DNA of 37,559 nucleotides from Terriglobales bacterium (GTDB taxonomy: Bacteria > Acidobacteriota > Terriglobia > Terriglobales > Acidobacteriaceae). Positions 6,465-32,781 of this stretch are shown piece by piece. The stretch spans positions 1 through 37,559 of the forward strand of contig DATIBR010000156.1 in NCBI GenBank assembly GCA_035457425.1, given 5' to 3'. How positions within the stretch are numbered: position 1 is the first letter of the stretch; the number at the start of each line of letters is the position of its first letter. The notes beneath the pieces were generated by a model. It was not told where the DNA came from. It saw only the letters and a program-made list of their open reading frames with translations, and searched no databases. Position numbers and translations under genes: made by a program.

Positions 6465-6677
6465 GAATCGTTGCACGATATCACTATGTCAATCAGTAGA
6501 TGAGCGCTGCGAATCTCCGCTTCGTGGGAGAGTTGCGCCCAGGCAGCGACGCAAGCGACTGAAAAGGCAGCGATGGGTTGTGGCCCGCTGCTTGCGGTAT
6601 CGAATTGCCCCGCAGGAGTCCTCTCCCCCGGAGCACGGGCCCAAAATGAAACTCAACCATTGAATACTGGAGTGACG

Positions 6678-9600: not shown

Positions 9601-10274
9601 ATGCCGATTTCGACATCCGGCATCGCTGGGTGTTCAGCGGCGTGTGGGACGTGCCGTGGTTCAAGAACAGCGACACGTGGTGGGGCAAGTACGTGCTGAG
9701 CGGCTGGACGGTCTCGCCCGTGATCTCGGTACAGACGGGCACGCCGTTCACGCTGTGGGACTGCACGTGGGGCTTCCAGCTGTGTCCGCGGTACATGCCG
9801 CTGTCGGCGGTCGACGCCGCGGCGCATGACACGAACACGCTGACGGACGCGACCGCGGACCAGAACTCCTTCAGCTACATCACCATCGATCCGGCGAACA
9901 CGCTCAACTACTTCAACCCCGTGATGGGGACGGCGGACTTCGGTGACTGCGGTGTAGGCGAAGGCGCGGTGCGCACCTGCCTGTATCCCGGGCAGATGAC
10001 GCAGCGCAACGCATTCCGCGGCCCTGGACTGTGGAACACCGACCTCGCGATCGCGAAGAACTTCAAGATCGGCGAGCGGTTCAACCTGCAGTTCCGCGCT
10101 GACGCGTTCAACCTGTTCAACCACTCCAACCTGTACGTCATCGGGTCGACCGCCGACGTGTGCAACCAGCTGTGCTTCGGCGATCCCGCTTCGGTCACCG
10201 CGAAACGCGGGGGCTTCGGCGACGAGTTCGATGAGCGCAGGTACCTCAGCCTCGGGCTGAAGCTGACCTTCTAG
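6678..10274 (+). CDS. TonB-dependent receptor with carboxypeptidase-regulatory-like N-terminal domain (Oar-like)
   Basis: The 1,198-residue outer-membrane protein starts with a signal peptide (MDRNHLRPLLLMTFLLVVSG, cleavage near GLAFGQA). Residues about 27-105 form a carboxypeptidase-D regulatory-like beta-sandwich (GTVTDPQGAVVTNATVTV...NGLYTFTMLPPAPYEVTVEAQGF). A plug-like segment follows (INGQRAASTDILLDG, SEFRVITSNFSAEYGRASGGVVNVATRQGTN), then a large beta-barrel rich in aromatic and Asn residues, ending in Phe (LGLKLTF) as outer-membrane proteins do. Such Oar-like receptors are greatly expanded in Acidobacteriota and are thought to import glycans or peptides; the substrate here is unknown. 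A GGAG lies 5 bases before the ATG. Two CRP/FNR-like sites precede it and a strong terminator follows, so it is probably monocistronic. Confidence 0.93.
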   Translation: MDRNHLRPLLLMTFLLVVSGLAFGQAETGQVAGTVTDPQGAVVTNATVTVKNLNTAAVRSATTNENGLYTFTMLPPAPYEVTVEAQGFQALKKQVAVTVGSRNTLDLTLRVAGGEAIVEVVSATGGTQVEVTTQELSQVIGRQQIAELPTFNRNPYTLIGTAGNVTSDAQGSTIRGAGYSINGQRAASTDILLDGGENVDLFTASIGQLVPLDAVSEFRVITSNFSAEYGRASGGVVNVATRQGTNNFHGGVFWTYRGAGLTSNTYDNNAIMSVDHQGFVADPIGHPTCANFGDADCAGYKPNYVRNQFGYSVGGPIWKDKLFFFNSTEWIRVRSSAVQQVVVPDPTFITSGAVAPETAAFFTAYGALRPGLKVVHNDVQVCGTSYDPVTDTCALGNSVPFDTVAFTVPSNAGGGDPQNQYQTVARVDFNITDKTTMYGRYALQSLSLFPGSVSNSPYGGFDTGESIFNNNVLVNLTHIWNPDLVSQSKFIFNRLNDVQPINAAPTPTLFMRDRTTRIGGNRVALPGYLPFSPGSGIPFGGPQNLYQFYQDVSWNKGTHQFRFGGQYIHTRDNRMFGAYEESSQYLSLTGEPSGMYIDRLIAGELVRFEGAVDPQGHYPCPTDPFGAVISSPACQVVLPVSSPRFDRANRYHDFAAYAQDTWKIHPRLSLNLGMRWEYYGVQHSNDPSLDSNFYLGAGSTYPAMVRNGQVFPITDPGNPVGELWEPDWNNFAPRFGFAWDIFGDGRTSLRGGYGMAYERNFGNVTFNVIQNPPNYAVMSLTSGVDAVCIPTCMISVNNFGPLGAPLGVADLPKTSLRAPKQDLNTAYSHFWSLAIERELAKNTVLAVEYTGSKGVHLYSIENPNKIGAGVIYLGDNPADQFIPSASCYGVGNCPTRRLNDQYSGFNRRGDAGFSQYHGLNVRLQTTNLFNSGWTFTSNYTWSHAIDNLSSTFSESANNFNLGFVDVFNPALDKGHADFDIRHRWVFSGVWDVPWFKNSDTWWGKYVLSGWTVSPVISVQTGTPFTLWDCTWGFQLCPRYMPLSAVDAAAHDTNTLTDATADQNSFSYITIDPANTLNYFNPVMGTADFGDCGVGEGAVRTCLYPGQMTQRNAFRGPGLWNTDLAIAKNFKIGERFNLQFRADAFNLFNHSNLYVIGSTADVCNQLCFGDPASVTAKRGGFGDEFDERRYLSLGLKLTF

Positions 10275-20783: not shown

Positions 20784-22616
20784 GTGCCCCGTGAATCGAG
20801 CATCCAGGACTACGCCGTCATCGGCGACTGCCGCGCCGCCGCGCTGGTGAGCCGCGCCGGCTCGCTCGACTGGCTGTGCTGGCCGCGCTTCGATAGTCCG
20901 GCGATCTTCGCCGCGCTGCTCGACCGCGAACGCGGCGGCTACTGGCGGATCGCTCCGGCTGACGCGCACGAGGCGCGGCGGCGGTATGTGGGCGAGTCGA
21001 ACGTCCTGGAGACGACGTTCACCGGCGCGAGCGGCAGCGCGACGCTCACCGACCTGATGCCGGTGGCGAGCGAGCAGTTCAAGAACGAGCACCTCATCCC
21101 GGATCACGAGGTGGTGCGGCGCGTGGAGTGCACCGCGGGCGCGGTCGAGCTCGACGTGGAGTTTTTTCCGCGCTCGCAATATGGGTTGAAGGCGCGCGCG
21201 CTGCGCGAGCGCGGCAAGCTCGGGCTGCGCCTGGAAGACGGCCGCGGCGCGTACTGGCTGCGCGCGAGCGTGCCGCTCGAGGTCCGCGGAAAAGGCGCGA
21301 TCGCGCGGGTGCGGCTGCGGGCGGGCGAGCGCGCGTACTTCTCGCTGAGCTACGCGCAGGAATCGCCGATTGTGTTGCCAGAGCTGGGCGAGCCGACCGA
21401 GAAAGCCATCGCGCGCTCGGTGCGCTGGTGGGAGGAGTGGGCGGCGCGCTGCCAGTATGACGGCCCGTACCGCGCGGCGGTGGTGCGGAGCGCGCTGGCG
21501 CTGAAGCTGTTGACGTATGCGCCGTCGGGGGCGATCGTCGCCGCGGCCACGACTTCCCTGCCGGAGATCGTGGGCGCGAGCGCGAACTGGGACTACCGCT
21601 ACTGCTGGCTGCGCGATGCGTCGCTCACGATGCGCGCGCTGCTCGGGCTCGGGCATCGCAACGAGGCCGCGGGCTTCCTCGACTGGCTGCTGCATGCGAC
21701 GCGACAGACGCATCCGGAGCTGCGCGTGCTGTACACCGTGTTCGGGCGCGAATCGCCCCGCGAGCGCGAGCTGACGCACCTGCGCGGCTACCGCGAGTCG
21801 CGGCCGGTGCGCGTGGGCAATGCCGCGCGCGGGCAGTTGCAGCTCGACATCTACGGCGAGGTGATCAAGGCCGCGGGCCAGTTCGCCGAGGAAGACGGCT
21901 GCTTCGACGGCATGACGCAGAAAGTCCTGCTCGGGCTGGGCAAGTACGTGGCGAAGCACTGGCGCCTGCCGGACGAAGGGATCTGGGAGCCGCGGACCGG
22001 CCGGCGGCACAACACGTTCTCGCGGCTGCTGTGCTGGGCGGCGCTGGACCGGCTGATCACGCTGGGGGAAAGCGGGAGATTGAAGAGCGTGCCGCTGGAG
22101 CGCTTCGCGCGAGAGCGCGATGCCATCCGGCGCGAGCTCGAGACACGTGCGTGGAATGAAGAGCTTCAGAGCTACACCGCCACGCTCGACGGGGACGACC
22201 TCGACGCCACGCTGCTGCGCATCCCGTGGTACGAGTTCGAAGCCGCGGGCTCGCCGCGCATGCGCGCGACGCACGAAGCGGTCACGCGCGCGCTCTCGGC
22301 GGGCAACGGCTTGCTGTATCGCTATCGTCGCGAGCCGGCAGAGGGCGCGTTCGGCATCTGCAGCTTCTGGAACGCGGAGTACCTGGCGACGGGCGGCGGC
22401 ACGCTGGAGCAGGCGCATGCGGCGTTCCAGGCGCTATTGCGCTACGCCAACGACGTGGGGCTGTACGGCGAGGAGATCGAGCCGGAGACGGGTGCGGCGC
22501 TGGGGAACTTTCCGCAATCCTTCACGCACGTGGGGCTGATCAGCGCGGCGCTTTCGATCGCGGAAAGACAAAAGCAGGGAGCGCGGCCGCCGCTGACCGC
22601 GAGCGAGGCCGCATGA
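20784..22616 (+). CDS. GH15 family glycosidase (trehalase or glucoamylase type)
   Basis: The 610-residue cytosolic protein opens with the GH15 bacterial signature IQDYAVIGDCRAAALVSRAGSLDWLCWPRFDSPAIFAALL. The (alpha/alpha)6 barrel carries NWDYRYCWLRDASLT (substrate site), the general acid in EGIWE (Glu402) and the general base in YGEEIEPETGAALGNFPQSFTH (Glu563 or Glu564). Members act on trehalose, maltose-type oligosaccharides or dextran ends with inversion; mycobacterial trehalase is the closest studied layout. The GTG start at 20784 has no good ribosome site. It overlaps the next gene by 4 bases. A glycogen debranching gene at 35634 is compatible with storage-carbohydrate turnover in this organism. 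Confidence 0.92.
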   Translation: MPRESSIQDYAVIGDCRAAALVSRAGSLDWLCWPRFDSPAIFAALLDRERGGYWRIAPADAHEARRRYVGESNVLETTFTGASGSATLTDLMPVASEQFKNEHLIPDHEVVRRVECTAGAVELDVEFFPRSQYGLKARALRERGKLGLRLEDGRGAYWLRASVPLEVRGKGAIARVRLRAGERAYFSLSYAQESPIVLPELGEPTEKAIARSVRWWEEWAARCQYDGPYRAAVVRSALALKLLTYAPSGAIVAAATTSLPEIVGASANWDYRYCWLRDASLTMRALLGLGHRNEAAGFLDWLLHATRQTHPELRVLYTVFGRESPRERELTHLRGYRESRPVRVGNAARGQLQLDIYGEVIKAAGQFAEEDGCFDGMTQKVLLGLGKYVAKHWRLPDEGIWEPRTGRRHNTFSRLLCWAALDRLITLGESGRLKSVPLERFARERDAIRRELETRAWNEELQSYTATLDGDDLDATLLRIPWYEFEAAGSPRMRATHEAVTRALSAGNGLLYRYRREPAEGAFGICSFWNAEYLATGGGTLEQAHAAFQALLRYANDVGLYGEEIEPETGAALGNFPQSFTHVGLISAALSIAERQKQGARPPLTASEAA

Positions 22617-23092
22617 TCCAGTGGCAGAGCTGGCTGCTGTGGGGGTTCCTGGCGACGCTGCTGCTCACCACCGTGAGCGCGGTGACGCAGGGGCTAGGAT
22701 TCACGCGCATGAACATCCCGTACCTTCTGGGAACGATGTTGACGCCGGACCGCGACCGCGCGCGCGTCTACGGATTCTTCGCGCACCTGGGGATCGGCTG
22801 GGCATTCTCGCTGCTCTACGTGCTGATCTTCCGCGCGCTGGGGCAGGCCGACTGGTGGCACGGAGCGCTCATCGGGCTGCTGCATGCGCTGTTCGTGCTG
22901 GTGGTGGTGGCGGTGCTGCTGCCGGGCGTGCACCCGCGGATGGCGAGCGAGCAGCACGGCCCGGAAGCGGGACGCGTGCTCGAACCGCCGGGCTTCCTGG
23001 CGCTGAACTACGGGATCCAGACACCGCTCTCGGTGTTCGTCTCGCACGCGGTGTTCGGCGCGGTGCTGGGCGCCTTCTACCGGCTGCACTGA
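22613..23092 (+). CDS. Four-helix integral membrane protein of unknown function
   Basis: A 159-residue protein with four hydrophobic segments: about 8-30 (LLWGFLATLLLTTVSAVTQG), 55-77 (FFAHLGIGWAFSLLYVLIF), 83-105 (HGALIGLLHALFVLVVVAVLL) and 138-157 (SVFVSHAVFGAVLGAFYRL). The loop before the last helix contains HPRMASEQHGPEAG. I do not recognise the family. Its ATG overlaps the GH15 stop (ATGA), so it is translated with that enzyme. Its stop at 23090-23092 touches the stop of the convergent ASRT gene, leaving no intergenic bases. Confidence 0.8.
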   Translation: MIQWQSWLLWGFLATLLLTTVSAVTQGLGFTRMNIPYLLGTMLTPDRDRARVYGFFAHLGIGWAFSLLYVLIFRALGQADWWHGALIGLLHALFVLVVVAVLLPGVHPRMASEQHGPEAGRVLEPPGFLALNYGIQTPLSVFVSHAVFGAVLGAFYRLH

Positions 23093-23470
23093 TCAGGCGG
23101 CCGGAAACGCGATGGTGGTGAGCAGGGCGTTCTCCGCCTGGCGCGAGTCGAGGCGCGTGTGCTGCACGACGATGGGGACGTCGGAGCGGATGACGCTGGA
23201 GTAGTCGGTGTCGCGCGGGATGGGCTCGGGGTCGCGCAGGTCGTTGAAGCGCAGGTGCAGTGTGCGGCGCGGCGGCAGGGTGACGCGGTACGGCCCGCTG
23301 GGCTCGCGGTCCTTATAGAAGATGGTGATCTCGATGCGCGCCTCGCGGTCGCCGGCGTTGAGCAGGCAGGCGGTCTCGTGGCTGGTCATCTGCGGCGCGG
23401 GGCCGTGGCTCTCCGACGGGATGTAGCCTTCGGCGATGGCCCAGACTCTTGCTCCGATCGCATCGTTCAT
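23093..23470 (-). CDS. Anabaena sensory rhodopsin transducer (ASRT) family protein
   Basis: The 125-residue soluble protein matches the ASRT family nearly end to end as I recall it: VWAIAEGYIPSESHGP at 9-24, MTSHETACLLNAGD, IEITIFYKDREPSGPYRVTLPPRRT, LHLRFNDLRDPEPIPRDTDYSSVI and PIVVQHTRLDSRQAENALLTTIA. In Anabaena this beta-sandwich protein binds the retinal protein ASR. Homologues occur in organisms without rhodopsins and have been proposed to bind small molecules, possibly sugars, or DNA. No rhodopsin gene is in this window. It is the last gene of a four-gene run, 10 bases after the FAD/Fe-S oxidoreductase, with AGGAGG 4 bases before its ATG. Confidence 0.93.
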   Translation of the reverse strand: MNDAIGARVWAIAEGYIPSESHGPAPQMTSHETACLLNAGDREARIEITIFYKDREPSGPYRVTLPPRRTLHLRFNDLRDPEPIPRDTDYSSVIRSDVPIVVQHTRLDSRQAENALLTTIAFPAA

Positions 23471-23480
23471 CGTTCCTCCT

Positions 23481-26400
23481 TCATTTGCGCGCGAGGCGCC
23501 AAAAGACGAAAGCACCGGCGGCGAGCAGTCCGAGGGTGGTTGCGGCCCGGGAGCGCGCCTTGCGGCGCGCGGCCGCCCGTTTCCGGATGAGCGCCGTCTC
23601 CGGCGGTCCTTCGACGGCGGCGCCCTGCTTGGCCAGTTGGATCACCTCGGCGAGATGCAGGGCGTGGCGGCCGGTCTGCTGCGCGATCTGCTCGCGGCAA
23701 CTGAAGCCGTCGGCGAGGATGAAGGTCTCGCGGTCCGCCGCGCGCACCGCCGGCAGCAGCGCGCGCTCGCCGACGGCGATCGAGACGTCATACTTATCGC
23801 TCTCGAAGCCGAACGAACCTGCCATGCCGCAGCAGCCAGAGGCGAGGACCTCCGCGTCGAGTCCGAGCTGCTGCAGCACGGCCTGCTCGCTATCGAACTT
23901 CAAGACTGACTTGTGATGGCAGTGCCCCTGCACGAGCGCTTTGCGCGCGAGCCGCGGGAGGCGGTCGGGAGCGACGTGGCGCGCGAGGAACTCGCTGAGC
24001 AGCACAGTCTGGCGGCGCAGCTTTTCGGCGCGCGGGTCGCCAGGAAGAAGGTTGCGGAGTTCGTCGCGGAAGACGGAGGCGCAACTGGGCTCGAGCACGA
24101 CGATGGGAGTGCCGGCGGCGAGCTCGGGCGCGAGCTGTTCCAGCACGCGTTCGAGGTAGCGCTTCGCCGTCGCCAACATGCCGAAGTCGTAGAGCGGGCG
24201 GCCGCAGCAGAGGTGCGCGCGCGGGACGTCGACGGCGAAGCCGGCGTCGTCGAGCACGGCGGCGGCGGCTTGCGCGGTCTCGGGGAAAAAGTAGTTGTTG
24301 AAGGTGTCGGGCCAGAGCAGGACGCGCGAGCGCCCGACGTGGCGAGGCCGATGCCGGGCGAACCACGCCTGGAAGGTCCGCGGGGCGAACTCGGGGATGG
24401 CGCGCGCGCGCGGAATGCCCGCCGCGAGCTTGGCGAGATCGCGAAGGAGCGGCGTCTGCGTGACGAGGTTCACCGCGCCGGGCCAGAGCGACGCCAGCCG
24501 CGCCCACTGGTCGATGAAGCCGAAGGCGTAGGCGTGGCGCGGACGCAGGCGGCCCTCGAAGTAGTGCGCGAGGAACTCGGCCTTGTAGGTGGCCAGGTCG
24601 ACGTTCACGGGGCACTCGCCCTTGCAGCCTTTGCACGCGAGGCAGAGGTCGAGCGCCTCCTTCACGTTCTCGTCGCGCCAGCCCTCGCGCAGCACGTCGC
24701 CTTGCAACATCTCCCAAAGCAGGTGCGCGCGGCCGCGCGTGGAATGCTTCTCCTCGCGCGTGACCATGTAGCTGGGGCACATGGTGTCGCGACCGGGCTC
24801 GACCCCGCGTTCCTTGCGGCACTCGCCCACGCCGACGCAGCGCAACGTGGCGTCGCTGAAGCGGCCGTGGTCGTCAGGAAACTGAAAATAGGTCCGCGGC
24901 TGCGCCGGACGATAGGCCGCGCCGAGGCGCAGGTTCTCGTCGGCACGATATGGGTCGACGACTTTCCCGGGGTTCATCCTCCCTTCCGGATCCCAGATGC
25001 GCTTGAACTCGCGAAAGGCTTCGACCAGCTCCGGCCCGAACATCTTGTGGAGGAACTCGGCGCGCGACTGTCCGTCGCCGTGCTCGCCGGAGAGCGAGCC
25101 GCCGTGCGCAACGACGAGATCGGTGGCTTCTTCCAGGAACTCGCGGAACTTGCGCACGCCGGGCGCGCTCATCAGGTCGAAGCTGATGCGGGTGTGCACG
25201 CAGCCCATGCCGAAGTGCCCGTAGAGCGCGCCGATGTAGCCGAACTTCTCGTAGAGCTTGCAGAGATCGCGCAGGTAGGCGCCGAGGCGCTCGGGCGCGA
25301 CGGCGGAATCTTCCCAGCCCTCCCAGGTGACGGGCTGCCCGGGAACGAAGGCGGTGGCGCCGAGTCCGGCTTCGCGCGTCGCCCACACGTGCTTCTCTTC
25401 CTCGGGATCGTCGTAGAGCTTCATCGTGGGAGCTGAGGAGCTGTGCTTGAGCTTGTCCATCAGCTCGCGCGCGCGGTCGTCGGATTCCTGCTGCGTCTCG
25501 CCGCCGAACTCGACCAACAGCCAACCCCTCCCTTCCGGCAAGAGCTTCAGGTACTCCTCGTGCAGGCGCTTCTTCTTCATGTTCTCGACCAGCAGGCTGT
25601 CCAAGCCTTCGAGGCCGATGGGGCGAGACGGCAGGATGTCGGGGATGTGGTCGGCGGCGTGGTAGACGTCGGGATAGCCGAGCACGACGAGCGTGCGGTA
25701 CTTCGGCCAGGGGACCAGATGGACCGTGGCTTCCAGGATGGTGACGAGCGTGCCTTCGGAGCCGACCAGGGCGCGCGCGAGGTTGAAACGGCCGTCTTCC
25801 CCGGGCAGCAGCGAATCGAGGTTGTAGCCGGAGACGCGACGCGGGATCTTCGGATAGCGCTCGGCGATGAGGCGCGCGTAGCGCTCGCGCATCCGCGCGA
25901 CGCCGCGGAAGATCTCGCCCACGCGCCCGGACGCGGCAGCCTGGGCGGCGAGGTCGGCTTCGGTCATCCACCCGGCGCGCAGGCGGAGGCCGTCGTAGGT
26001 GAGGAGCTCGAGTTCCTCGGTGTTGTCCACGGTCTTGCCGGCCATCTGGGCGTGGACGCCGCAGGAGTTGTTACCCAGCATCCCGCCGAGGGTGCAGTGA
26101 TTGTGTGTAGCGGGGTCGGGACCGAAGGTGAGGCCGTGCTGCTGCGCGGCCTCGCGCAAGTCGTCGAGCACGGTGCCGGGAAGGACGCGGGCGCGGCGAG
26201 CGGCGGGGTCGAGCGCGACGACGCGGTTCAGGTATTTCGACCAATCGAGCACGACGGCGACGTTGCAGCACTGGCCGGCGAGGCTGGTGCCGCCTCCGCG
26301 CGAGAGCACCGGCGCGCCGAACTCGCGGCACAGGCCGATGGTCGCGACCACGTCTTCGATACTGCGCGGCACGACGACGCCGATGGGGACCTGGCGGTAG

Positions 26401-26555
26401 TTGGAAGCATCGGTCGCATAGAGCGCGCGGCTGCCGGCGTCAAAGCGGACTTCGGCGGTGGTGCGCTGGCGCAGCGCCTGCTCGAGCGCTCGGAAGTCCA
26501 CGGTCGCCGGCGGCGGCGCGATGCGGACCAGCGGGTTGTCATGCAGCGCGCTCAT
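23481..26555 (-). CDS. FAD-binding and Fe-S-binding oxidoreductase (YdiJ/D-lactate dehydrogenase-like)
   Basis: The 1,024-residue protein joins a GlcD-type flavin domain to a GlpC-type Fe-S domain. The PCMH flavin site spans about 40-225 (VPRSIEDVVATIGLCREFGAPVLSRGGGTSLAG; GGMLGNNSCG). The flavin-oxidase C-domain ends at MNPGKVVDPY. Then come two 4Fe-4S clusters (CVGVGEC...MCPSY and CLACKGCKGECPV near 636-648) and two CCG domains (HLCCGRPL near 782, SGCCGMAGSFG near 907). A basic stretch and hydrophobic helix (TTLGLLAAGAFVFWRLA) at the C-terminus may anchor it to the membrane. Size and layout match E. coli YdiJ, a D-2-hydroxyglutarate dehydrogenase, so oxidation of a D-2-hydroxyacid is likely. 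I chose ATG 26555 (AAAGAGA upstream); TTG 26567 is possible. It sits 8 bases after the enolase-superfamily gene. Confidence 0.92.
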   Translation of the reverse strand: MSALHDNPLVRIAPPPATVDFRALEQALRQRTTAEVRFDAGSRALYATDASNYRQVPIGVVVPRSIEDVVATIGLCREFGAPVLSRGGGTSLAGQCCNVAVVLDWSKYLNRVVALDPAARRARVLPGTVLDDLREAAQQHGLTFGPDPATHNHCTLGGMLGNNSCGVHAQMAGKTVDNTEELELLTYDGLRLRAGWMTEADLAAQAAASGRVGEIFRGVARMRERYARLIAERYPKIPRRVSGYNLDSLLPGEDGRFNLARALVGSEGTLVTILEATVHLVPWPKYRTLVVLGYPDVYHAADHIPDILPSRPIGLEGLDSLLVENMKKKRLHEEYLKLLPEGRGWLLVEFGGETQQESDDRARELMDKLKHSSSAPTMKLYDDPEEEKHVWATREAGLGATAFVPGQPVTWEGWEDSAVAPERLGAYLRDLCKLYEKFGYIGALYGHFGMGCVHTRISFDLMSAPGVRKFREFLEEATDLVVAHGGSLSGEHGDGQSRAEFLHKMFGPELVEAFREFKRIWDPEGRMNPGKVVDPYRADENLRLGAAYRPAQPRTYFQFPDDHGRFSDATLRCVGVGECRKERGVEPGRDTMCPSYMVTREEKHSTRGRAHLLWEMLQGDVLREGWRDENVKEALDLCLACKGCKGECPVNVDLATYKAEFLAHYFEGRLRPRHAYAFGFIDQWARLASLWPGAVNLVTQTPLLRDLAKLAAGIPRARAIPEFAPRTFQAWFARHRPRHVGRSRVLLWPDTFNNYFFPETAQAAAAVLDDAGFAVDVPRAHLCCGRPLYDFGMLATAKRYLERVLEQLAPELAAGTPIVVLEPSCASVFRDELRNLLPGDPRAEKLRRQTVLLSEFLARHVAPDRLPRLARKALVQGHCHHKSVLKFDSEQAVLQQLGLDAEVLASGCCGMAGSFGFESDKYDVSIAVGERALLPAVRAADRETFILADGFSCREQIAQQTGRHALHLAEVIQLAKQGAAVEGPPETALIRKRAAARRKARSRAATTLGLLAAGAFVFWRLARK

Positions 26556-26563
26556 CGTCTCTT

Positions 26564-27679
26564 TCAAGCGGCATACCGCAGCGCGTCGGCGCGCTTCAGT
26601 TCAAGGCCCATGCCGGGGCGGCCGAGATCTGGCGCCAGCTTTCCGTCCACCGGTGTGCTGGCGCCGTCGAAGAACATCTGCTCGATGCGCGCGTGATCGT
26701 GGAAGTGCTCGATGGAGTGGCAGTTTGGGACGGCGCAGCACACATGCAAATGCAGCGCGGGGGCGGTGTGAGCAGAGAGCGGCATGTTCCACGCGGCGGC
26801 GAGCGCGGCCGCGCGCAGGAAACCGGTGATGCCGGCGCAGCGGGTCGCATCGGCTTGAAGGATATCGACCGCGCCGGCCTCGAGCATGCGACGGAAGTAG
26901 TAGTCGTCGTAGCCGTACTCGCCGGCGGTGATCGCCATGCGCGCGGGCGCGCGGTCGCGGATGAGCCGCAGTCCTTCGAGGTCATCGGATGAGACCGGCT
27001 CCTCGAACCACGTCACGCGCTGCTCGCGGAAGCGCTCGGCCATCGCGAGCGCCTGCTTGCGCGTGTAGGCGCCGTTCGCGTCGACGAACAGCTCGGCGCG
27101 CTCGCCGATGGCTTCGCGCGCGAGCGTCACCCTCGCGGGATCGCGCTCGGGCTCGCGACCGATCTTCATCTTCACCATGCCGATGCCTTCGCGCACCCAG
27201 TCGCCGAGCTGTGCCTGAAGCTGCGCGTCGTCATACGAAGTGAAGCCGCCGCTGCCGTAGACCGGGACGTCCTCGCGCGCCATCCCCAACAACTTTGCGA
27301 GCGGCATGCCGAGGAGACGGGCCTTCAAGTCCCAGAGCGCAGCGTCGACCGCGGCGATGGCCATGGAGCAGATGCCGGGGCGCCCGTTGTTGCGGATGGC
27401 GTGCACCATGCGATGCCACGCGCTTTCGATATCGAGCGCGTCGCGGCCGATGATGAGCGGCGTGAAAGTCGCACGGATGAGCTGGGCGATGCAGGCGTGC
27501 CCATAGGTGTAGCCAATGCCTGTGGTCGAGCCAGCGGTGAGCTCAACGAGAACCATCGTGGTGCTGTCCCATTCGAAGGTGCCGTCGGACTCCGGCGACG
27601 AGGTCGGGACGCGAAAAACGGACACCTCGAGGCGCGTGACCGGCGCTTCCCCGCTCCGGATTGGCTGGAGGTTCCCCAC
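26564..27679 (-). CDS. Enolase superfamily, mandelate-racemase-subgroup enzyme
   Basis: The 371-residue enzyme shows a complete MR-subgroup active site by eye: Lys170-x-Lys172 (VKMKIG), metal ligands Asp200 (FVDANGAY), Glu226 (WFEEPV) and Glu254 (TAGEYGYD), and the Asp277/His304 dyad (LQADATR, LSAHTAP). These positions run 5-7 residues behind those of mandelate racemase itself (164/166, 195, 221, 247, 270/297). Such enzymes abstract the alpha-proton of a carboxylate, usually to dehydrate a sugar acid or racemise a hydroxyacid. Product chemistry fits the downstream flavin/Fe-S dehydrogenase. The GTG start overlaps the SDR stop by one base (TAGTG), so the genes are coupled. Confidence 0.92.
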   Translation of the reverse strand: MGNLQPIRSGEAPVTRLEVSVFRVPTSSPESDGTFEWDSTTMVLVELTAGSTTGIGYTYGHACIAQLIRATFTPLIIGRDALDIESAWHRMVHAIRNNGRPGICSMAIAAVDAALWDLKARLLGMPLAKLLGMAREDVPVYGSGGFTSYDDAQLQAQLGDWVREGIGMVKMKIGREPERDPARVTLAREAIGERAELFVDANGAYTRKQALAMAERFREQRVTWFEEPVSSDDLEGLRLIRDRAPARMAITAGEYGYDDYYFRRMLEAGAVDILQADATRCAGITGFLRAAALAAAWNMPLSAHTAPALHLHVCCAVPNCHSIEHFHDHARIEQMFFDGASTPVDGKLAPDLGRPGMGLELKRADALRYAA

Positions 27680-28707
27680 TAGGCCGCCTCGAGCTCGTCC
27701 AGCTCCTCACGCAGCCGGCGGCCGGAGGTCGCTAACGCGAACAAGAGAGCTGCGCCGGTGAGGATGCCGGCGAGCAGCGGCGCGCGATGCGTGGTGAACC
27801 AGAGCTGCCGGCTGCGGTCGAGCGCGCGCTCGTCGAAGCGGCCGTGGGCGCCGACGTCTCCCGGGACGGGCTTCCACAAATTGTTGGGGCGAGCAGGATC
27901 GGCGGGCTCGGAGGTCTGCTGCGCGTCGTAGCCGTTGCGCGCGAGATAGTGGTCGGCGAGGGAGGGCACGAGCTTGTCGGCCCAGATGGCCTTCACGGTG
28001 GAGCCGCCGACATAGACCTCGCGGCGGCGATGGTGCGCCGCCCAGTAGATAGCGCGCGCGGCGACCTCGGGCTGGAAGATAGGCGGGACCGGCTGCGCGC
28101 GGCGCGGCAGGCGGCTCTTCACCCAGTCGAACTGCGGGGTGTTGAGCGCGGGGAGCTGCACCATGCAGAGATGGATGTTGCTGTTGTCGTGCAGCAGCTC
28201 GGTGCGGAGCGATTCGGTGAAGCCGAGCACGGCGTGCTTGGCGGCGCAGTACGCGGACTGCAACGGGATGCTGCGGTAGGCGAGCGCGGAGCCGACCTGC
28301 ACGATGGCGCCGCGGCCGCGCGCGCGCATGCGGCGCAGCGCGGCGAGGGTGCCGTAGACGGTCCCGAGATAGGTGACGGCGGTGACGCGGTCGAATTCGT
28401 CGGGCGTCATCTGGGCGACGGGCGAGAAGACGCTGGCCATGGCGTTGTTGATCCAGACGTCGATGCGGCCGAAGATGCGCTCGACCTTGGCAGCGGCGGC
28501 CTCGACCTGCCGCTGATCGGCGACGTCAGTGGGCAGCGCGATGGCTTCGGCGGCGCCGAGGCGCTCGGCCTCGCGGGCGGCGGCTTCCAGGCGGCGCGGC
28601 TCGCGCGCGAGCAGCGCGATGCGCGCGCCGTGGCGCGCGAATTCCTGCACGGTCGCGCGGCCGACGCCGGCGGAGGCGCCGGTGATGACGACGATTTCCC
28701 TGTCCAT
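27679..28707 (-). CDS. Membrane-anchored short-chain dehydrogenase/reductase
   Basis: The 342-residue protein has a classical SDR domain: TGASAGVG cofactor loop at 9-16, NNA at 87-89, catalytic Ser140, Tyr153 and Lys157 (YCAAK). After about residue 240 it carries a long extension ending in a hydrophobic helix near 309-327 (APLLAGILTGAALLFALA) and an acidic tail, so the enzyme is probably tethered to the membrane. The Arg after the TGASAGVG loop and Arg36 in LLAREPRRL favour NADP(H). It begins a four-gene coupled group with the MR-subgroup enzyme, flavin/Fe-S oxidoreductase and ASRT. It has no clear ribosome site; 99 bases separate it from the upstream hydrolase gene. Confidence 0.92.
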   Translation of the reverse strand: MDREIVVITGASAGVGRATVQEFARHGARIALLAREPRRLEAAAREAERLGAAEAIALPTDVADQRQVEAAAAKVERIFGRIDVWINNAMASVFSPVAQMTPDEFDRVTAVTYLGTVYGTLAALRRMRARGRGAIVQVGSALAYRSIPLQSAYCAAKHAVLGFTESLRTELLHDNSNIHLCMVQLPALNTPQFDWVKSRLPRRAQPVPPIFQPEVAARAIYWAAHHRRREVYVGGSTVKAIWADKLVPSLADHYLARNGYDAQQTSEPADPARPNNLWKPVPGDVGAHGRFDERALDRSRQLWFTTHRAPLLAGILTGAALLFALATSGRRLREELDELEAA

Positions 28708-28806: not shown

Positions 28807-29748
28807 CTATTGTTCGGCGAAGAAGGTCAGGATGCGCGCGGTGACCTCCTGCGGGCACTCTTCGGCGAGGTAGTGTCCGCAGCCGGAGATGGCGCCGCCC
28901 TGGACGTTGGTGGCGGCCTGCTGCATGGCCTTGAGCATGGTGTCGCCGGTGGCCTTGGCGATGTCGCCGCCGATGGTGAGCACCGGCATCTCCAGCTTCG
29001 TCTGCATGGACTTGCGGTTCTGCTGGTGGTCGGTGAAGAAGGCGCGGTAGTAGTCGAAGCCGGCCTTCATGTAGCCGGGCTTGGAATAGACGCGAGTGTA
29101 CTCGGCGAGGTCGGCGCCGGCGACGGTGTCAGGGTTGAAGGACTTCGCCTGGAAGAACCACGCGAGATATTGGCGCTCGCGCCCTTTGGTCATCGCTTCC
29201 GGAAGGTCGGGCACGGCGTGCCAGAAGAACTGGAAGATCTTGTTGTGGGTGGCGTCGGAGAGCATGAAGGCCTGGTCGGGGGCGACGCCGGGGATGGCGG
29301 CGTCCATCAGCACCAGCTTTTTCGTGACGTCGCGGTAGTTGGCGGCGTAGGCGTAGGCGAGCCAGGCGCCGACATCGTGGCCGACGAGCAGGTGCTGCTG
29401 CACGCCGAGCTTGACGAGCGCGTCGTGCAGGTAACCGGCGATGGTCTCGGTGTCGTAGGCGGTGGCGAAGCCGGAATCGCCCTGGCCGGGCAGGTCGAAG
29501 GCGTAGACCTTGTAATGCTTCGCGAGGTCGGGCATGACCTTGCGCCAGGCGTACCAGCTCTCGGGCCAGCCGCCGACGAGCACGAGCGGCTCGCCTTCGC
29601 CGCCGACGACGTAATGCATCTTGGCGCCGCGCACGGTGACGTTGCCATGCTTGAAGTCCCTGGCGAAAGCCTTGGCGTCGAAGCGCTGGGCGAACGCGGC
29701 GCCGCAGAACGCGGCGAGCAGGAAAACGAGAGCAAGAACGCGACGCAT
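28807..29748 (-). CDS. Secreted epoxide-hydrolase/haloalkane-dehalogenase-like alpha/beta hydrolase
   Basis: The 313-residue protein has a signal peptide (MRRVLALVFLLAAFCGAAFA). The nucleophile is an aspartate, Asp125 in LVGHDVGAWLAY, which marks the epoxide hydrolase and dehalogenase branch rather than esterases. His292 (SGCGHYLAEECP) completes the site, and GGWPESWYAW at 59-68 replaces the usual HGWP oxyanion motif. Cap-domain tyrosines (YTRVY near 217-221, YY near 233) fit epoxide activation. ATG 29748 has GGAG 6-7 bases upstream. It starts 11 bases after the VOC gene and ends the six-gene group. The true substrate, epoxide or halo-acid, is unknown. Confidence 0.9.
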   Translation of the reverse strand: MRRVLALVFLLAAFCGAAFAQRFDAKAFARDFKHGNVTVRGAKMHYVVGGEGEPLVLVGGWPESWYAWRKVMPDLAKHYKVYAFDLPGQGDSGFATAYDTETIAGYLHDALVKLGVQQHLLVGHDVGAWLAYAYAANYRDVTKKLVLMDAAIPGVAPDQAFMLSDATHNKIFQFFWHAVPDLPEAMTKGRERQYLAWFFQAKSFNPDTVAGADLAEYTRVYSKPGYMKAGFDYYRAFFTDHQQNRKSMQTKLEMPVLTIGGDIAKATGDTMLKAMQQAATNVQGGAISGCGHYLAEECPQEVTARILTFFAEQ

Positions 29749-29759
29749 GAGTGCTCCTC

Positions 29760-30437
29760 TTATTTGATCCAGGGACGATCCTGGTGCCACGACTGCGCCG
29801 GCCCGTAGAGGCGCGCCGGCGTCTGCTGCTCGTACGCGAGGTGCGCCGGCCGGTGGACCAGTTCCATGTACATGCCGAACGGGGAGACGAAATAGCGGAT
29901 CTGCTCGCCCTTCTTGGCGGCGCCGCCCGGCAGGAACGGGCCCGCGAGCAGGCGCGCGCCGTTCTTCTGGAGGTAGGCGGAGGCGACTTCGAGGTCGTCG
30001 ACGTAGAACGCGATGTGCGGCGAGCCGACGTCGGCGTTGCGCGGGAACTTCTTCACCTGGCCCGGGAACGGCGCTTCCTTGAGCTCGAAGTTGATGTTGG
30101 GACCGAGGCGCAGCATGGCAACACGCGAGACCGCGCGGCCGTCCACCTCATAGCGCGCGGGGTTGTTGACGGGATCGCGGAACGGGCCGGCGGTCCAGAG
30201 CAGGTCGGCGCCGAGCACGGTGGTGGACCACTTCAGCGCGGCGTCGAGATCCTTGACGACGACGCCGAAGTGGTCGGGATTGCGCGCGCCGGGGATGCCG
30301 GCGCCGGTCTTGCCGTAGTCGTCGAGCGGACGCTGCGGCGGCACGTCGGCCACGGGCGTGGGCCGGGCTTGCCACGCGAACGCGGCGGCGGCGACCAACA
30401 CCAGTGCGAGCGCGCAGGCATGGGTTCGGTGCGTCAT
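29760..30437 (-). CDS. Secreted VOC (glyoxalase/dioxygenase fold) protein
   Basis: The 225-residue protein has an N-terminal signal peptide (THACALALVLVAAAAFAWQA). The first beta-alpha-beta-beta-beta module reads NPDHFGVVVKDLDAALKWSTTVLGADLLW (about 53-81) and the second GSPHIAFYVDDLEVASAYLQKNGARLL (about 138-164), ending FGMYMELVHRP. The His of PDHFG, the His of SPHIAF and the Glu of MYMELV are plausible metal ligands. Secreted VOC proteins are unusual. Activity could be lyase, isomerase, dioxygenase or epimerase. It lies 28 bases after the ABM gene and 11 before the hydrolase gene. Confidence 0.88.
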   Translation of the reverse strand: MTHRTHACALALVLVAAAAFAWQARPTPVADVPPQRPLDDYGKTGAGIPGARNPDHFGVVVKDLDAALKWSTTVLGADLLWTAGPFRDPVNNPARYEVDGRAVSRVAMLRLGPNINFELKEAPFPGQVKKFPRNADVGSPHIAFYVDDLEVASAYLQKNGARLLAGPFLPGGAAKKGEQIRYFVSPFGMYMELVHRPAHLAYEQQTPARLYGPAQSWHQDRPWIK

Positions 30438-30465
30438 TGCGACCTCCCGCGGCGGAAAGGGATGC

Positions 30466-30765
30466 TCAGAGTTGTTTCACGCTCGCCACGTTGTAGAGCT
30501 TGATCACCGGCGTGCCGGTGATCATGTCGGGAAAACGCTTCATGAAGTCCTGGAAGTACGAGGTCTGGAAGTGCTTGTCGAGGACTTCCTGGCTCTCCCA
30601 CTCTTCGAAAAAGACGAACGAGTCGGGGTCGCCGGCGTCCTGATAGCAGCTGTAGTGCAGGCAGCCCTGCTCGGCGCGCGAGGGGCCGTAGAGCGACGTG
30701 GCGAGCTTCACCATGTCGGCACGCCGCTCCGGCTTCACTTTGAACCTGCCTCCGACGACGATCAC
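30466..30765 (-). CDS. Antibiotic biosynthesis monooxygenase (ABM/YgiN-like) protein
   Basis: A 99-residue ferredoxin-like-fold protein: MIVVGGRFKVKPERRADMVK at the start, EQGCLHYSCYQDAGDPDSFVFFEEWESQEVLDKHFQTSYFQDF in the middle. The family includes cofactor-free quinone-forming monooxygenases (ActVA-Orf6, YgiN) and haem-degrading enzymes. No signal peptide, so it is cytosolic, unlike its secreted neighbours. It lies 13 bases after the cupin gene on the same strand. Confidence 0.9.
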   Translation of the reverse strand: MIVVGGRFKVKPERRADMVKLATSLYGPSRAEQGCLHYSCYQDAGDPDSFVFFEEWESQEVLDKHFQTSYFQDFMKRFPDMITGTPVIKLYNVASVKQL

Positions 30766-30778
30766 GCGAGCACCTCCG

Positions 30779-31495
30779 CTACTTGCATGCGCCGCCGTTG
30801 CGCTTGGCGTCGGTGGCGAACAGCGCCTCGAGCTCCTTGGCGTGGTTGTCGGCGGGCTTCATGGTGTAGTCGCCGGGACCGTCCACGTACTCGCCCCACG
30901 ACGCGCTCTGATTGATGCCGTACTTCGGCCCCTGCGAGACGAACAGCTGCTTGTTCTTGTCGGCGATGGGGGGCGGGTTCTTGGGGTCGGTGACGAGCTG
31001 GCCGACTTCCTTGAAGTACTCGCTGATCTTGTCCGGCGTCCAGACGAAGATGAGGCGGCGGTTGTCTTTGGCCTCGTTGTTGAAGCCATGGATGTAGTAG
31101 CGCGGTCCGTAGATGAGGTCGCCAGGCTGCGTGCGGTACTTGTGCACCTTGCCCTTGGGGAGCTGCTTGCCCGGGACCTGCTTGAGGTCAGGGTAGGTCT
31201 TTTCGCTCATGTAGATGGTGATGCCGCCATCCGGGAAGTAGAACCACTCGTCGGTCCAGTGGTGAATGTGAGGCATGGGACCGGCGCCCGGCGGGATGAC
31301 GGAGTCGGCGATGGTGAACTTGCCGCAGGTAGTGGCGCCGACGCGGGTGAAGGTGAAGATCTCGCCCGCCGGCCCCTGGATGACCATCGGCTTGGGGTCC
31401 TTCTTGTAGTCCGGGAACTTGTACTTCATGCTCTGCGCCGAGGCGGCGCCGAGGAACAGCGTGACGAGCAGGGCCCCGAGTGCGAATCTCCGCAT
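30779..31495 (-). CDS. Secreted cupin-domain protein
   Basis: The 238-residue protein carries a signal peptide (MRRFALGALLVTLFLGAASA, before QSMKYKF). One cupin barrel is visible: motif 1 PHIHHWTDEWFYFPDGG (His76, His78 or His79, Glu83) and motif 2 PGDLIYGPRYYIHGFNN (His136), which give a typical two-or-three-His plus Glu metal site. The C-terminal 90 residues are outside the core. Cupins of this type can be dioxygenases, isomerases or binding proteins; no substrate can be inferred. It is in the middle of the six-gene minus-strand group. Confidence 0.88.
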   Translation of the reverse strand: MRRFALGALLVTLFLGAASAQSMKYKFPDYKKDPKPMVIQGPAGEIFTFTRVGATTCGKFTIADSVIPPGAGPMPHIHHWTDEWFYFPDGGITIYMSEKTYPDLKQVPGKQLPKGKVHKYRTQPGDLIYGPRYYIHGFNNEAKDNRRLIFVWTPDKISEYFKEVGQLVTDPKNPPPIADKNKQLFVSQGPKYGINQSASWGEYVDGPGDYTMKPADNHAKELEALFATDAKRNGGACK

Positions 31496-31596
31496 GACGG
31501 TCCTTTCGGCGCGCGGCACGGCCGGGCGCCTGTTGATGTTGGTGGTGAAGGGAGTGAAGCGAGTATGCACTGCCGCGCGGGGCGGGCGCAAGTCGC

Positions 31597-31956
31597 CTAC
31601 GCGCCCTTGCCTTTGGCCTCGCCCAGCACCTGCTTCAACATGCCGAAGGCGCCGGCGGCCTTGTTGAAGCCGGCGTAGACGCACATGAACAGCAGCAGCT
31701 CCTCGATCTCCTCGCGGGTGGCGCCCTGCTTCATCGCCATGTTGACGTGCGCGCCGAAGGGATTGCCGGGGCCGTTGTGGTCCTGGTTCACCACGTCGAT
31801 GGCGATGGTGATGAGCGCCTTGGTCTTCTGGTCGATGAGCGGCTTGCCCCACACCTCGCCCGCAACGCGGGTGCACAGGTCGCCGAACGCCGGGTGGATG
31901 CCGGCGAGGCCTTGCTGAAGGTCTTTGTCGTCGAGTACGGCATTCTTGTATGGCAT
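31597..31956 (-). CDS. Carboxymuconolactone decarboxylase family protein
   Basis: The 119-residue helical protein matches the CMD/AhpD-like domain: HPAFGDLCTRVAGEVWGKPLIDQKTKALITIAIDVVNQDH, then GAHVNMAMKQGATREEIEELLLFMCVYAGFNKAAGAFGMLKQV. The AhpD CxxC redox pair is absent, so it is not a disulfide reductase. The His usual in LLH of gamma-carboxymuconolactone decarboxylase is Phe here (LLLFMCVYAG), so the classical activity is doubtful. GGAG lies 6-7 bases before the ATG. It is 101 bases upstream of the cupin gene. Confidence 0.9.
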   Translation of the reverse strand: MPYKNAVLDDKDLQQGLAGIHPAFGDLCTRVAGEVWGKPLIDQKTKALITIAIDVVNQDHNGPGNPFGAHVNMAMKQGATREEIEELLLFMCVYAGFNKAAGAFGMLKQVLGEAKGKGA

Positions 31957-31989
31957 GAGTCTCCTCTGAGTCCCTTCTGAAAATGGTGT

Positions 31990-32015
31990 GCGCGCGGACG
32001 CAAGCGCCCGCGCGC
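31990..32015. other. GC-rich hairpin between two operon genes
   Basis: GCGCGCGG and CCGCGCGC form a perfect 8-bp stem around a 10-base loop, between the NTF2-like and carboxymuconolactone-decarboxylase-like genes. There is no T-run. It may tune the relative amounts of the two parts of the transcript. Confidence 0.4.
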
Positions 32016-32028
32016 GGGTTGCAGATCG

Positions 32029-32607
32029 CTATTTGCCGGCCGCGGCCGCGCGGATGAGCTTGATGAGCTCGGGCGAGGCGTAGACGTCGCGGTAGAAGGT
32101 GAGCTGCTCGCTCTTGTAGTAGCAGCCGCCGCGATGCCCGCGGCGCACCCAGCAGACATTGCCCTTGGCGATGGTCTCGTTGGTGGCGTTGTCCTCGCAC
32201 TTCCACTCGAAGTGGACGAACTCGCTCCAGAACTGGACGATGGGCCAGCACATGGTGACGCCGGGCTGGGCGATGAGCGCCCACCAGTGCTCCTCGCGCG
32301 CATGCTGCTCGTTCAGGCCGCGGAAGGGACCGTCCTGGCAGTGGTAGACGAGGTCGTCGCGATACTCGCCGGTCAGCAGGTCGCCGCGGCCTTCCCGCAG
32401 GGCTTCGCAGTGCGTGGGCCACCACTCGCGATTCTCCTTCTCGATCTGCTCCATGGTGTAGCCCGGGCCGATGGCGGGCAGCGTCTTCTCTTTGATGGCG
32501 ATGAAGCGCGCGGAATCGGCGATGAGCTTGGCCTTGAGGGCGTCGGGTACGAGGCCGGGGCGCGAAAAGTCGGCGGCCAGTCCTTCGTAGTAATTCCTGC
32601 GGGTCAC
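32029..32607 (-). CDS. NTF2/SnoaL-like protein
   Basis: The 192-residue protein has the look of a cone-shaped NTF2-like fold: EGRGDLLTGEYRDDLVYHCQDGPFRGLNEQHAREEHWWALI, then WSEFVHFEWKCEDNATNETIAKGNVCWVRRGHRGGCYYKSEQLTFYRD. SnoaL-type members are cyclases, isomerases or dehydratases on polyketide-like substrates; others only bind ligands. I chose the GTG at 32607 because AGGAGG lies 6 bases upstream; longer readings run through the promoter. This is the first gene of the ten-gene minus-strand run. Confidence 0.78.
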   Translation of the reverse strand: MTRRNYYEGLAADFSRPGLVPDALKAKLIADSARFIAIKEKTLPAIGPGYTMEQIEKENREWWPTHCEALREGRGDLLTGEYRDDLVYHCQDGPFRGLNEQHAREEHWWALIAQPGVTMCWPIVQFWSEFVHFEWKCEDNATNETIAKGNVCWVRRGHRGGCYYKSEQLTFYRDVYASPELIKLIRAAAAGK

Positions 32608-32650
32608 AGAACTCCTCCTGGGAACGGCTGGATATGGGGTCGGGGCGACG

Positions 32651-32679
32651 ATTCTCTTGTGGGTCTGAAAAAATAGCAA
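32651..32679 (-). promoter_or_regulatory. Candidate promoter of the minus-strand catabolic run
   Basis: Read on the minus strand, TTGCTA (plus coordinates 32674-32679) and GAGAAT (32651-32656) are separated by 17 bases; each matches consensus at 4 of 6. Transcription would start near 32644, giving a leader of about 37 bases before the GTG at 32607. Confidence 0.5.
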
Positions 32680-32725
32680 CAGGAATCGGTGTGGTGATTT
32701 CCGCAGTGGTAGGGCGTTCGCCGCG

Positions 32726-32753
32726 TTGATTTTTAGCGGGGAGATGCTAGAGT
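32726..32753 (+). promoter_or_regulatory. Candidate promoter of the DJ-1/AGE/STAS/GlgX operon
   Basis: TTGATT at 32726-32731 and TAGAGT at 32748-32753 are 16 bases apart; each matches consensus at 4 of 6. Transcription would start near 32760, 22 bases before the DJ-1-like ATG. It is back to back with the minus-strand promoter at 32651-32679. Confidence 0.5.
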
Positions 32754-32781
32754 GTCTCACCTCCCGGGACATACCTTATCT

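Follow-up and report, generated by a model that had tools for sequence, protein, structure and literature searches.

The stretch analysed here, hereafter the window, comprises 37,559 nucleotides of a Terriglobales bacterium (Acidobacteriota) and represents an entire contig (DATIBR010000156.1, C156) of a 3.14 Mb draft genome. It carries a gene for a homologue of the Anabaena sensory rhodopsin transducer (ASRT), the last in a minus-strand row of four genes that encode, in order of transcription, a short-chain dehydrogenase/reductase (SDR), a mandelate racemase (MR)-like enzyme, an FAD/Fe-S oxidoreductase and ASRT (Table 1). The operon had been proposed in a preliminary description of this DNA, and its coordinates and tight packing were borne out: the stop codon TAG of the SDR gene and the start codon GTG of the MR-like gene have one G in common (1-base overlap), and the two following gaps measure 8 and 10 bases. 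An AGGAGG ribosome-binding site lies directly before the ATG of ASRT, and an in-frame TTG at 26567 is found near the FAD/Fe-S start at 26555. The nearest same-strand gene upstream ends 99 bases before the SDR gene. A scan for sigma-70 promoters gave no match, which is a weak test in a G+C-rich genome.

Table 1 Features of the ASRT operon and of the two genes that face it (aa, amino acids; MR, mandelate racemase; GH15, glycoside hydrolase family 15)
Feature	Position	Strand	Evidence
SDR, PRK07109 type, 342 aa, hydrophobic C-terminal segment	27679..28707	-	NCBIfam, hydropathy, tailed-SDR profile
MR-subgroup enolase-superfamily enzyme, 371 aa	26564..27679	-	Pfam MR_MLE_N + MR_MLE_C, PDB 3cyj
FAD/Fe-S oxidoreductase, ~1024 aa, YdiJ/GlcDF-like, weak hydrophobic C-terminal segment	23481..26555	-	Pfam
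ASRT, 125 aa, canonical SHExxCxxN	23093..23470	-	PF07100, 2ii7, predicted fold
Small membrane-type protein, 159 aa, convergent with ASRT	22613..23092	+	homologues in L049, L039
GH15 family glycoside hydrolase with TREH_N domain, 610 aa	20784..22616	+	Pfam

ASRT matched PF07100 with an E-value of 8.6e-56 (187.5 bits, gathering score 25; positions 1-119 of 119), and its closest PDB sequence was that of Anabaena ASRT (2ii7, 8.7e-57), so that the earlier wording "near-perfect ASRT" is fair. The signature SHExxCxxN is present as S30, H31, E32, C35 and N38; its histidine and cysteine line the pocket proposed for the family (De Souza, Iyer and Aravind 2009, PMC2739507). The complete signature was found in 88 of the 91 best ASRT copies scanned, a set that includes one locus twice (L039 = L141; L numbers are our locus labels), and C35 was absent from three Nannocystis copies (L068, L078, L092), which carry a serine in place of the pocket cysteine. 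The structure model (mean pLDDT 84) predicted a beta-sandwich with Z scores of 16.4 to 2ii9 (Anabaena ASRT) and 15.4 to 1nc7 (TM1070). Alignment of the window ASRT with 79 homologues from 12 phyla revealed 26 invariant columns, among them H31, E32, H72, H104, R106 and D108. These 80 rows omit L083:10001-10375, an ASRT gene with an in-frame stop (decay or assembly error) amid genes for a thiamine pyrophosphate (TPP) enzyme, MR, a YdiJ-like enzyme and an SDR. Median identity to the window proteins was 73.8% for ASRT (14 loci), 63.0% for MR, 60.0% for the FAD/Fe-S enzyme (13 loci) and 66.6% for the SDR (9 loci); the top rank of ASRT is favoured because the loci were chosen by ASRT similarity. Phyla were scattered on a poorly resolved ASRT tree (34 changes, least possible 11), and this tree was set aside as a means to follow co-inheritance with partner type, the alignment having too few columns and 43 of 77 inner branches being open.

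The SDR is of the PRK07109 type (483.8 bits, NCBIfam cut-off 264; Pfam adh_short), and its C-terminal hydrophobic segment reaches a best 19-residue mean hydropathy of 1.95. A weaker segment of this kind, absent from the preliminary description, ends the FAD/Fe-S protein. The best PDB match of the MR-like protein was 3cyj, over the full length (3.7e-128). Residues K170, K172, D200, N202, E226, E227, E254 and D277 were invariant in the 25 copies from ASRT islands and the dyad histidine was kept in at least 90% of them; presumably, K170, K172, D200, E226, E254, D277 and the histidine represent the KxK motif, the acidic metal ligands and the Asp + His dyad. The protein is probably an acid-sugar dehydratase or racemase of the MR subgroup. 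No NCBIfam equivalog of the known acid-sugar dehydratases was matched above its cut-off (none of 16 listed families), the best score being that against L-talarate/galactarate dehydratase (202.5 bits, cut-off 500). The FAD/Fe-S protein combines FAD_binding_4, FAD-oxidase_C, Fer4_8, Fer4_17 and CCG in one chain, all above their cut-offs, and thus has the architecture of GlcD-GlcF/YdiJ-type 2-hydroxyacid dehydrogenases. The label "YdiJ-like" used for it at the outset is loose, as the protein scored 495 bits against the NCBIfam YdiJ equivalog (D-2-hydroxyglutarate dehydrogenase), under the cut-off of 1350.

A pattern-based scan of 84,980 species genomes yielded at least 472 ASRT relatives. For neighbourhood analysis, we used the best 80 of these 472 loci, which derive from 12 phyla and extend up to 10 kb to either side; 44 span at least 20 kb, many are cut by contig ends, and distant ASRT types lie outside this set. 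Together with eight plasmid loci (seven annotated) they form the 88 loci L009-L096. Recurring families were found by clustering the open reading frames (ORFs) of 89 loci and then counted with profiles at fixed thresholds of our own choice. The control consisted of 60 stretches from 49 ASRT-bearing genomes (0.85 Mb versus 1.32 Mb of ASRT loci), which start at contig ends and comprise many short contigs; the profiles were built from the ASRT loci, which favours matches there. Within the 80 loci, the TPP enzyme was detected in 27, MR in 21, the tailed SDR in 16, the YdiJ-like enzyme in 15, glycoside hydrolases of families 13 (GH13) and 15 (GH15) in 15 and 10, the LLM flavoprotein in 13 and a GMC oxidase in one. 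"LLM" is our label, taken from sequence, and corresponds to the Pfam family Bac_luciferase seen among the neighbours. The tailed-SDR profile count was preferred because the SDR cluster (30 of 89 loci) mixes in ordinary SDRs. Not one of the eight families reached its threshold in any of the 60 control stretches, where a few matches below threshold included an SDR at 98.8 bits and a TPP enzyme at 120.1 bits. Assuming the same density in both sets, the probability of every match lying in an ASRT locus was 9.3e-7 for TPP, 1.8e-5 for MR, 2.2e-4 for GH13 and 3.6e-4 each for the YdiJ-like enzyme and the tailed SDR, and weaker for LLM (0.0016) and GH15 (0.007).

The families also kept company with each other. 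Each of the 15 loci that carry the YdiJ-like gene has MR as well, and MR, TPP and YdiJ-like genes occurred together in 14 of the 80 loci, representing eight phyla. A search of 49 whole ASRT genomes recovered MR at E 1e-50 in 23, with at least 55% identity in 22. Among direct neighbours of ASRT, the TPP enzyme was the top Pfam family with 17 of 154 ORFs (11/78 downstream, 6/76 upstream), followed by alpha-amylase (6/78 and 4/76). The preliminary description had proposed counting enolase-superfamily and YdiJ-like genes near ASRT, and had stated beforehand that a neighbourhood unconserved in related genomes, or ASRT homologues regularly adjoining unrelated genes, would speak against it; neither was observed, conservation extending to several phyla and beyond the control (MR 21/80, YdiJ-like 15/80, 0/60). 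Its choice of MR and YdiJ-like partners was supported in so far as both are enriched, but the commonest direct neighbour proved to be the TPP enzyme. This partner had been missed because its gene lies on another contig here: the draft genome encodes a single ASRT and a single close copy each of MR and the FAD/Fe-S protein, with all other matches far weaker, and a PoxB-like TPP enzyme on contig C157, adjoining an aldehyde dehydrogenase gene. The TPP enzyme shares 70-77% identity with its nearest counterparts at ASRT loci (L021, L052, L053, L061, L076, L083) and 42-60% with the remaining full-length copies, apart from one at 40%. The last 21-55 bases of either window end did not occur in C157.

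Co-occurrence was also seen at the level of genomes. Out of 297 Acidobacteriota genomes, seven had an ASRT match at E 0.001, five exceeded the Pfam cut-off and four encoded the close type. MR at E 1e-60 was detected in ten, including all four genomes with close ASRT, one contig-end fragment and one protein at 37% identity (hypergeometric 6.6e-7 for close ASRT with MR, uncorrected for descent). In one genome (G067), ASRT and a TPP-MR-YdiJ set are separated by about 82-88 kb, so that the link between ASRT and these genes does not depend on adjacency.

A second, diverged ASRT (ASRT2) was revealed in six of the 88 loci (L009, L026, L077, L082, L090, L096), not counting a weak fragment in L020 (score -1). 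The hosts are Sinorhizobium meliloti (pSymB), Vulcaniibacterium, Luteimonas, Longitalea, Nonomuraea and a metagenome-assembled genome titled Deltaproteobacteria and placed in Myxococcota. Exactly these six loci also encode an ALO-type FAD oxidase (E 1e-20; PF01565 and PF04030 in the three copies tested), and neither gene was present in the other 82 (Fisher 1.8e-9, uncorrected for descent). The oxidase did not occur in any of the 60 control stretches. The order is ASRT1-ALO-ASRT2 in five of six loci, and in Longitalea (L082) ASRT2 separates ASRT1 from ALO. An inverse search that started from the oxidase in 247 genomes of the Vulcaniibacterium family found ALO at E 1e-60 in five genomes, of which one is the L026 genome, one matches the L077 query at 100% identity and three are new. 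ASRT2 adjoined the oxidase and an LLM flavoprotein was present in 5/5, and the full ASRT1-ALO-ASRT2 set was seen in four, the fifth being cut by a contig end. All six ASRT2 proteins had lost the acid at position 14, Y16 and H104 and carried D for E32, and four had lost H31 and C35; W10, N38, Q103, R106 and D108 were retained throughout. This pattern would fit a pocket that has changed on a scaffold that has stayed the same.

The S. meliloti locus unites both kinds of gene set, with TPP, ASRT1, ALO, ASRT2, GH13 and LLM genes. The GH13 gene next to its two ASRT genes is, judging by gene order, presumably SMb20099, which the accessible S. meliloti literature gives as treS. Published expression data on SMb20102 and SMb20103 concern genes further along than the ASRT set, and the accessible text of a study on rhamnose makes no mention of ASRT. 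A DUF892 gene lies near this locus, and LigD was found downstream of two of 78 ASRT genes; these are possible leads to a general stress island, which we do not claim.

Taken together, the gene content suggests that the window contains the greater part of a module for flavin-dependent oxidation of sugars or sugar acids, which has probably been passed between lineages. Drawing the pathway order from what is known of the enzyme families, GH15 or GH13 would supply the sugar and a flavin enzyme would oxidise this or a sugar acid; the MR-type enzyme would dehydrate or racemise the acid, and the PoxB-like TPP enzyme would decarboxylate the resulting 2-oxo acid. The oxidase would be the FAD/Fe-S protein here and, in relatives, either a GMC protein accompanied by subunit 3 of gluconate dehydrogenase or an FAD oxidase of the ALO type. 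The tailed SDR, the glycoside hydrolase and ASRT would complete the module. We put at roughly 50% the probability of this reading, in which ASRT binds a ligand and serves the oxidation as an accessory or regulatory partner. As a cytosolic oligomer, it may bind a sugar, lactone or sugar-acid intermediate in a pocket that would comprise E14, Y16, H31, E32, C35 and H104, and may then act on the flavoenzyme of the module by direct contact, control presumably running in that direction. In the window, ASRT would be a putative subunit or regulator of the FAD/Fe-S enzyme. A link to the flavin step is made more likely by the pairing of ASRT2 with ALO, which we regard as its strongest sign, although it comes from other loci and not from this window.

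Several observations weigh against an accessory role in flavin-dependent oxidation. None of the eight families was found in 27 of the 80 loci. The FAD/Fe-S enzyme occurred in 62 of the 297 Acidobacteriota genomes (E 1e-150), only four of which had close ASRT, and four genomes (99-100% complete) from the family to which the window belongs hold MR beside TPP with no ASRT found. In three of these four, a GMC gene follows MR-TPP, and the fourth stretch is cut. This co-occurrence pattern indicates that MR-TPP is the steadier pair, that the oxidase can vary and that ASRT is not obligatory. We also discarded the YdiJ-like enzyme as an exclusive ASRT partner, given its presence in 62/297 genomes and the GMC or ALO oxidases at other loci. 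The C-terminal part of the ASRT model is low in confidence, the high conservation of ASRT could also point to an enzyme, and DNA-binding activity has been reported for Anabaena ASRT in the accessible text of PMC8660804. As separate observations on the GMC-type stretches (L138, L139, L140), gluconate-dehydrogenase subunit 3 is encoded in two of the three, and a protein of our cluster c17 also occurs, the tested member of this cluster having no Pfam match.

A further-reaching version, which we hold only tentatively, would make ASRT a dedicated subunit or helper enzyme (mutarotase or lactonase) of flavin sugar oxidases; ASRT and ASRT2 would then form a mixed oligomer on ALO, and the light-signalling pair of Anabaena would be a late borrowing. 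It is rather doubtful that ASRT is itself a small pathway enzyme, such as a mutarotase of aldoses or a hydrolase of aldonolactones, that supplies substrate to the flavin oxidases or consumes their product. Lactones are common products of flavin sugar oxidases, and MR dehydratases take the acid in its open form. The polar residues of ASRT are highly conserved, as the 26 invariant columns illustrate, ASRT shows the highest conservation among the operon proteins in loci chosen by ASRT similarity, and the acidic residue 14, Y16 and H104 are missing together from ASRT2, all of which would suit a catalyst. However, three Nannocystis copies do without C35 and S. meliloti ASRT1 has Q for H104. A search for an enzyme relative by fold yielded, beyond ASRT and TM1070, only weak and mixed neighbours (Z ~5 or lower, top 5.6), namely carbohydrate-binding modules, a GH32 enzyme, calpain, GOLD and PHR domains, and the portions of the literature at hand mention no enzyme activity of ASRT.

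That ASRT regulates its own operon as a DNA-binding protein, as proposed for Anabaena, is unlikely. According to the accessible text of PMC8660804, Anabaena ASRT can bind DNA and form loops in it, and it increased the activity of a reporter in E. coli, yet its dissociation constant is about 10 uM with weak sequence dependence, a random sequence was looped more than the promoter fragment, and the reporter rose in all constructs. Of the DNA-contacting residues, R109 (R110 here, offset by one) was invariant in the 80 rows and Q111 was kept in at least 90%, but N113 (N114 here) was neither invariant nor near-invariant. With PF07100 as the sole Pfam match, no known DNA-binding domain was found. Even less probable is that ASRT was carried along in a transferred island for sugar or stress functions and does no direct work with its neighbours. 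Its patchy distribution (at least 472 relatives among 84,980 species genomes), the scatter of phyla on its tree and the 27 loci free of all eight families could be read in this way; against this stand the absence of the partner families, at their thresholds, from all 60 control stretches, the exact ASRT2-ALO pairing together with its recovery in the oxidase-first search, and the co-occurrence without adjacency in G067.

Rhodopsin was rare throughout. PF01036 did not match the four operon proteins or six other proteins of the window, and a search of the draft genome found none either, in keeping with the earlier statement that no rhodopsin is present. The same search was also negative for 14 control genomes, and it works, because it found rhodopsins in six of 50 other genomes; a rhodopsin gene was thus detected in only six of the 50 ASRT genomes. 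On the 88 ASRT stretches, which exclude Anabaena PCC 7120, the queries revealed a single case (L055) and recovered all six fetched rhodopsin loci. This rhodopsin of an Oscillatoriaceae cyanobacterium (L055:6449-7635; PF01036, 4.8e-59) has its stop 17 bases before the ASRT start. Light signalling as the role of ASRT in the window, for which the Anabaena work and the L055 pair are precedents, is close to refuted because no rhodopsin was found in the ten window proteins or the draft genome.

On the opposite strand, two genes face the operon. The upstream one encodes the GH15 protein (Glyco_hydro_15, 3e-61; TREH_N, 9.2e-14). The small membrane-type protein shows 68% and 51% identity to proteins of L049 and L039, both of which adjoin GH15, and its only Pfam match is DUF1440, below threshold. 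This gene pair, which the preliminary description does not mention, therefore recurs in the islands of two other Acidobacteriota. Elsewhere in the window, the minus-strand region 28807-32772 upstream of the operon contains small genes for an alpha/beta hydrolase, a glyoxalase-like protein, an ABM monooxygenase and a carboxymuconolactone decarboxylase-like protein, with further ORFs between them. The plus strand encodes, at 6573-10274, a large TonB-receptor-type protein of the outer membrane (OMP_b-brl_4 with a CarboxypepD_reg domain).

In the literature consulted, roles of ASRT outside Anabaena are proposed from gene context, and the module supplies concrete candidate partners. With its few genes and cultivable hosts, the ASRT1-ALO-ASRT2 set of S. 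meliloti, Luteimonas and others would allow the roles of sensor subunit, enzyme and DNA binder to be told apart. The module could also help to assign a function to 3cyj-type MR enzymes by way of the PoxB-like TPP enzyme and the flavin oxidase.

Comparison with known systems places the window in an established frame. De Souza et al. 2009 (PMC2739507) proposed ASRT as a binder of small molecules, probably sugars, that acts by protein contact, and already named such metabolic neighbours in operons of the ASRAH domain. The view of ASRT as a ligand sensor in metabolism, advanced in the preliminary description, agrees with the conserved neighbourhood and the rarity of rhodopsin but had thus been published in 2009. 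The core idea is theirs; the focus on the flavoenzyme is added here, together with the controlled counts, the TPP gene found on a second contig, the replacement of one oxidase by another between loci, the ASRT2-ALO set and the L055 pair. The main text of PMC2739507 does not contain the counts with control, the tailed SDR, the pair of GH15 and membrane-protein genes, the oxidase exchange or ASRT1-ALO-ASRT2, some of which its figures or supplement may show. The ASRT2-ALO set was likewise absent from the parts of the open literature searched and may be published elsewhere. In the accessible part of a 2011 study (PMC3198991), the rhodopsin-ASRT pair is taken as specific to Anabaena PCC 7120; L055 is another such pair of Anabaena sensory rhodopsin (ASR) and ASRT genes, outside that strain.

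The protein 3cyj has a PDB molecule name without specific function. Its source organism we take to be Rubrobacter xylanophilus. Compared with Anabaena ASRT (2ii7), the window protein is closely alike, whereas its operon differs and no rhodopsin was found. TM1070 of Thermotoga maritima (1nc7) shares the fold at a diverged sequence (72.2 bits); it has a metabolic neighbourhood of isomerase, aldolase and kinase genes in a genome without rhodopsin (De Souza et al. 2009, PMC2739507). The closest counterpart is the metabolic operon described in that study, in which a dehydratase or racemase and a glycolate-oxidase-like FAD oxidoreductase accompany ASRT. The window has all of these and is a further copy of this operon type, in Acidobacteriota, with its TPP gene on another contig.

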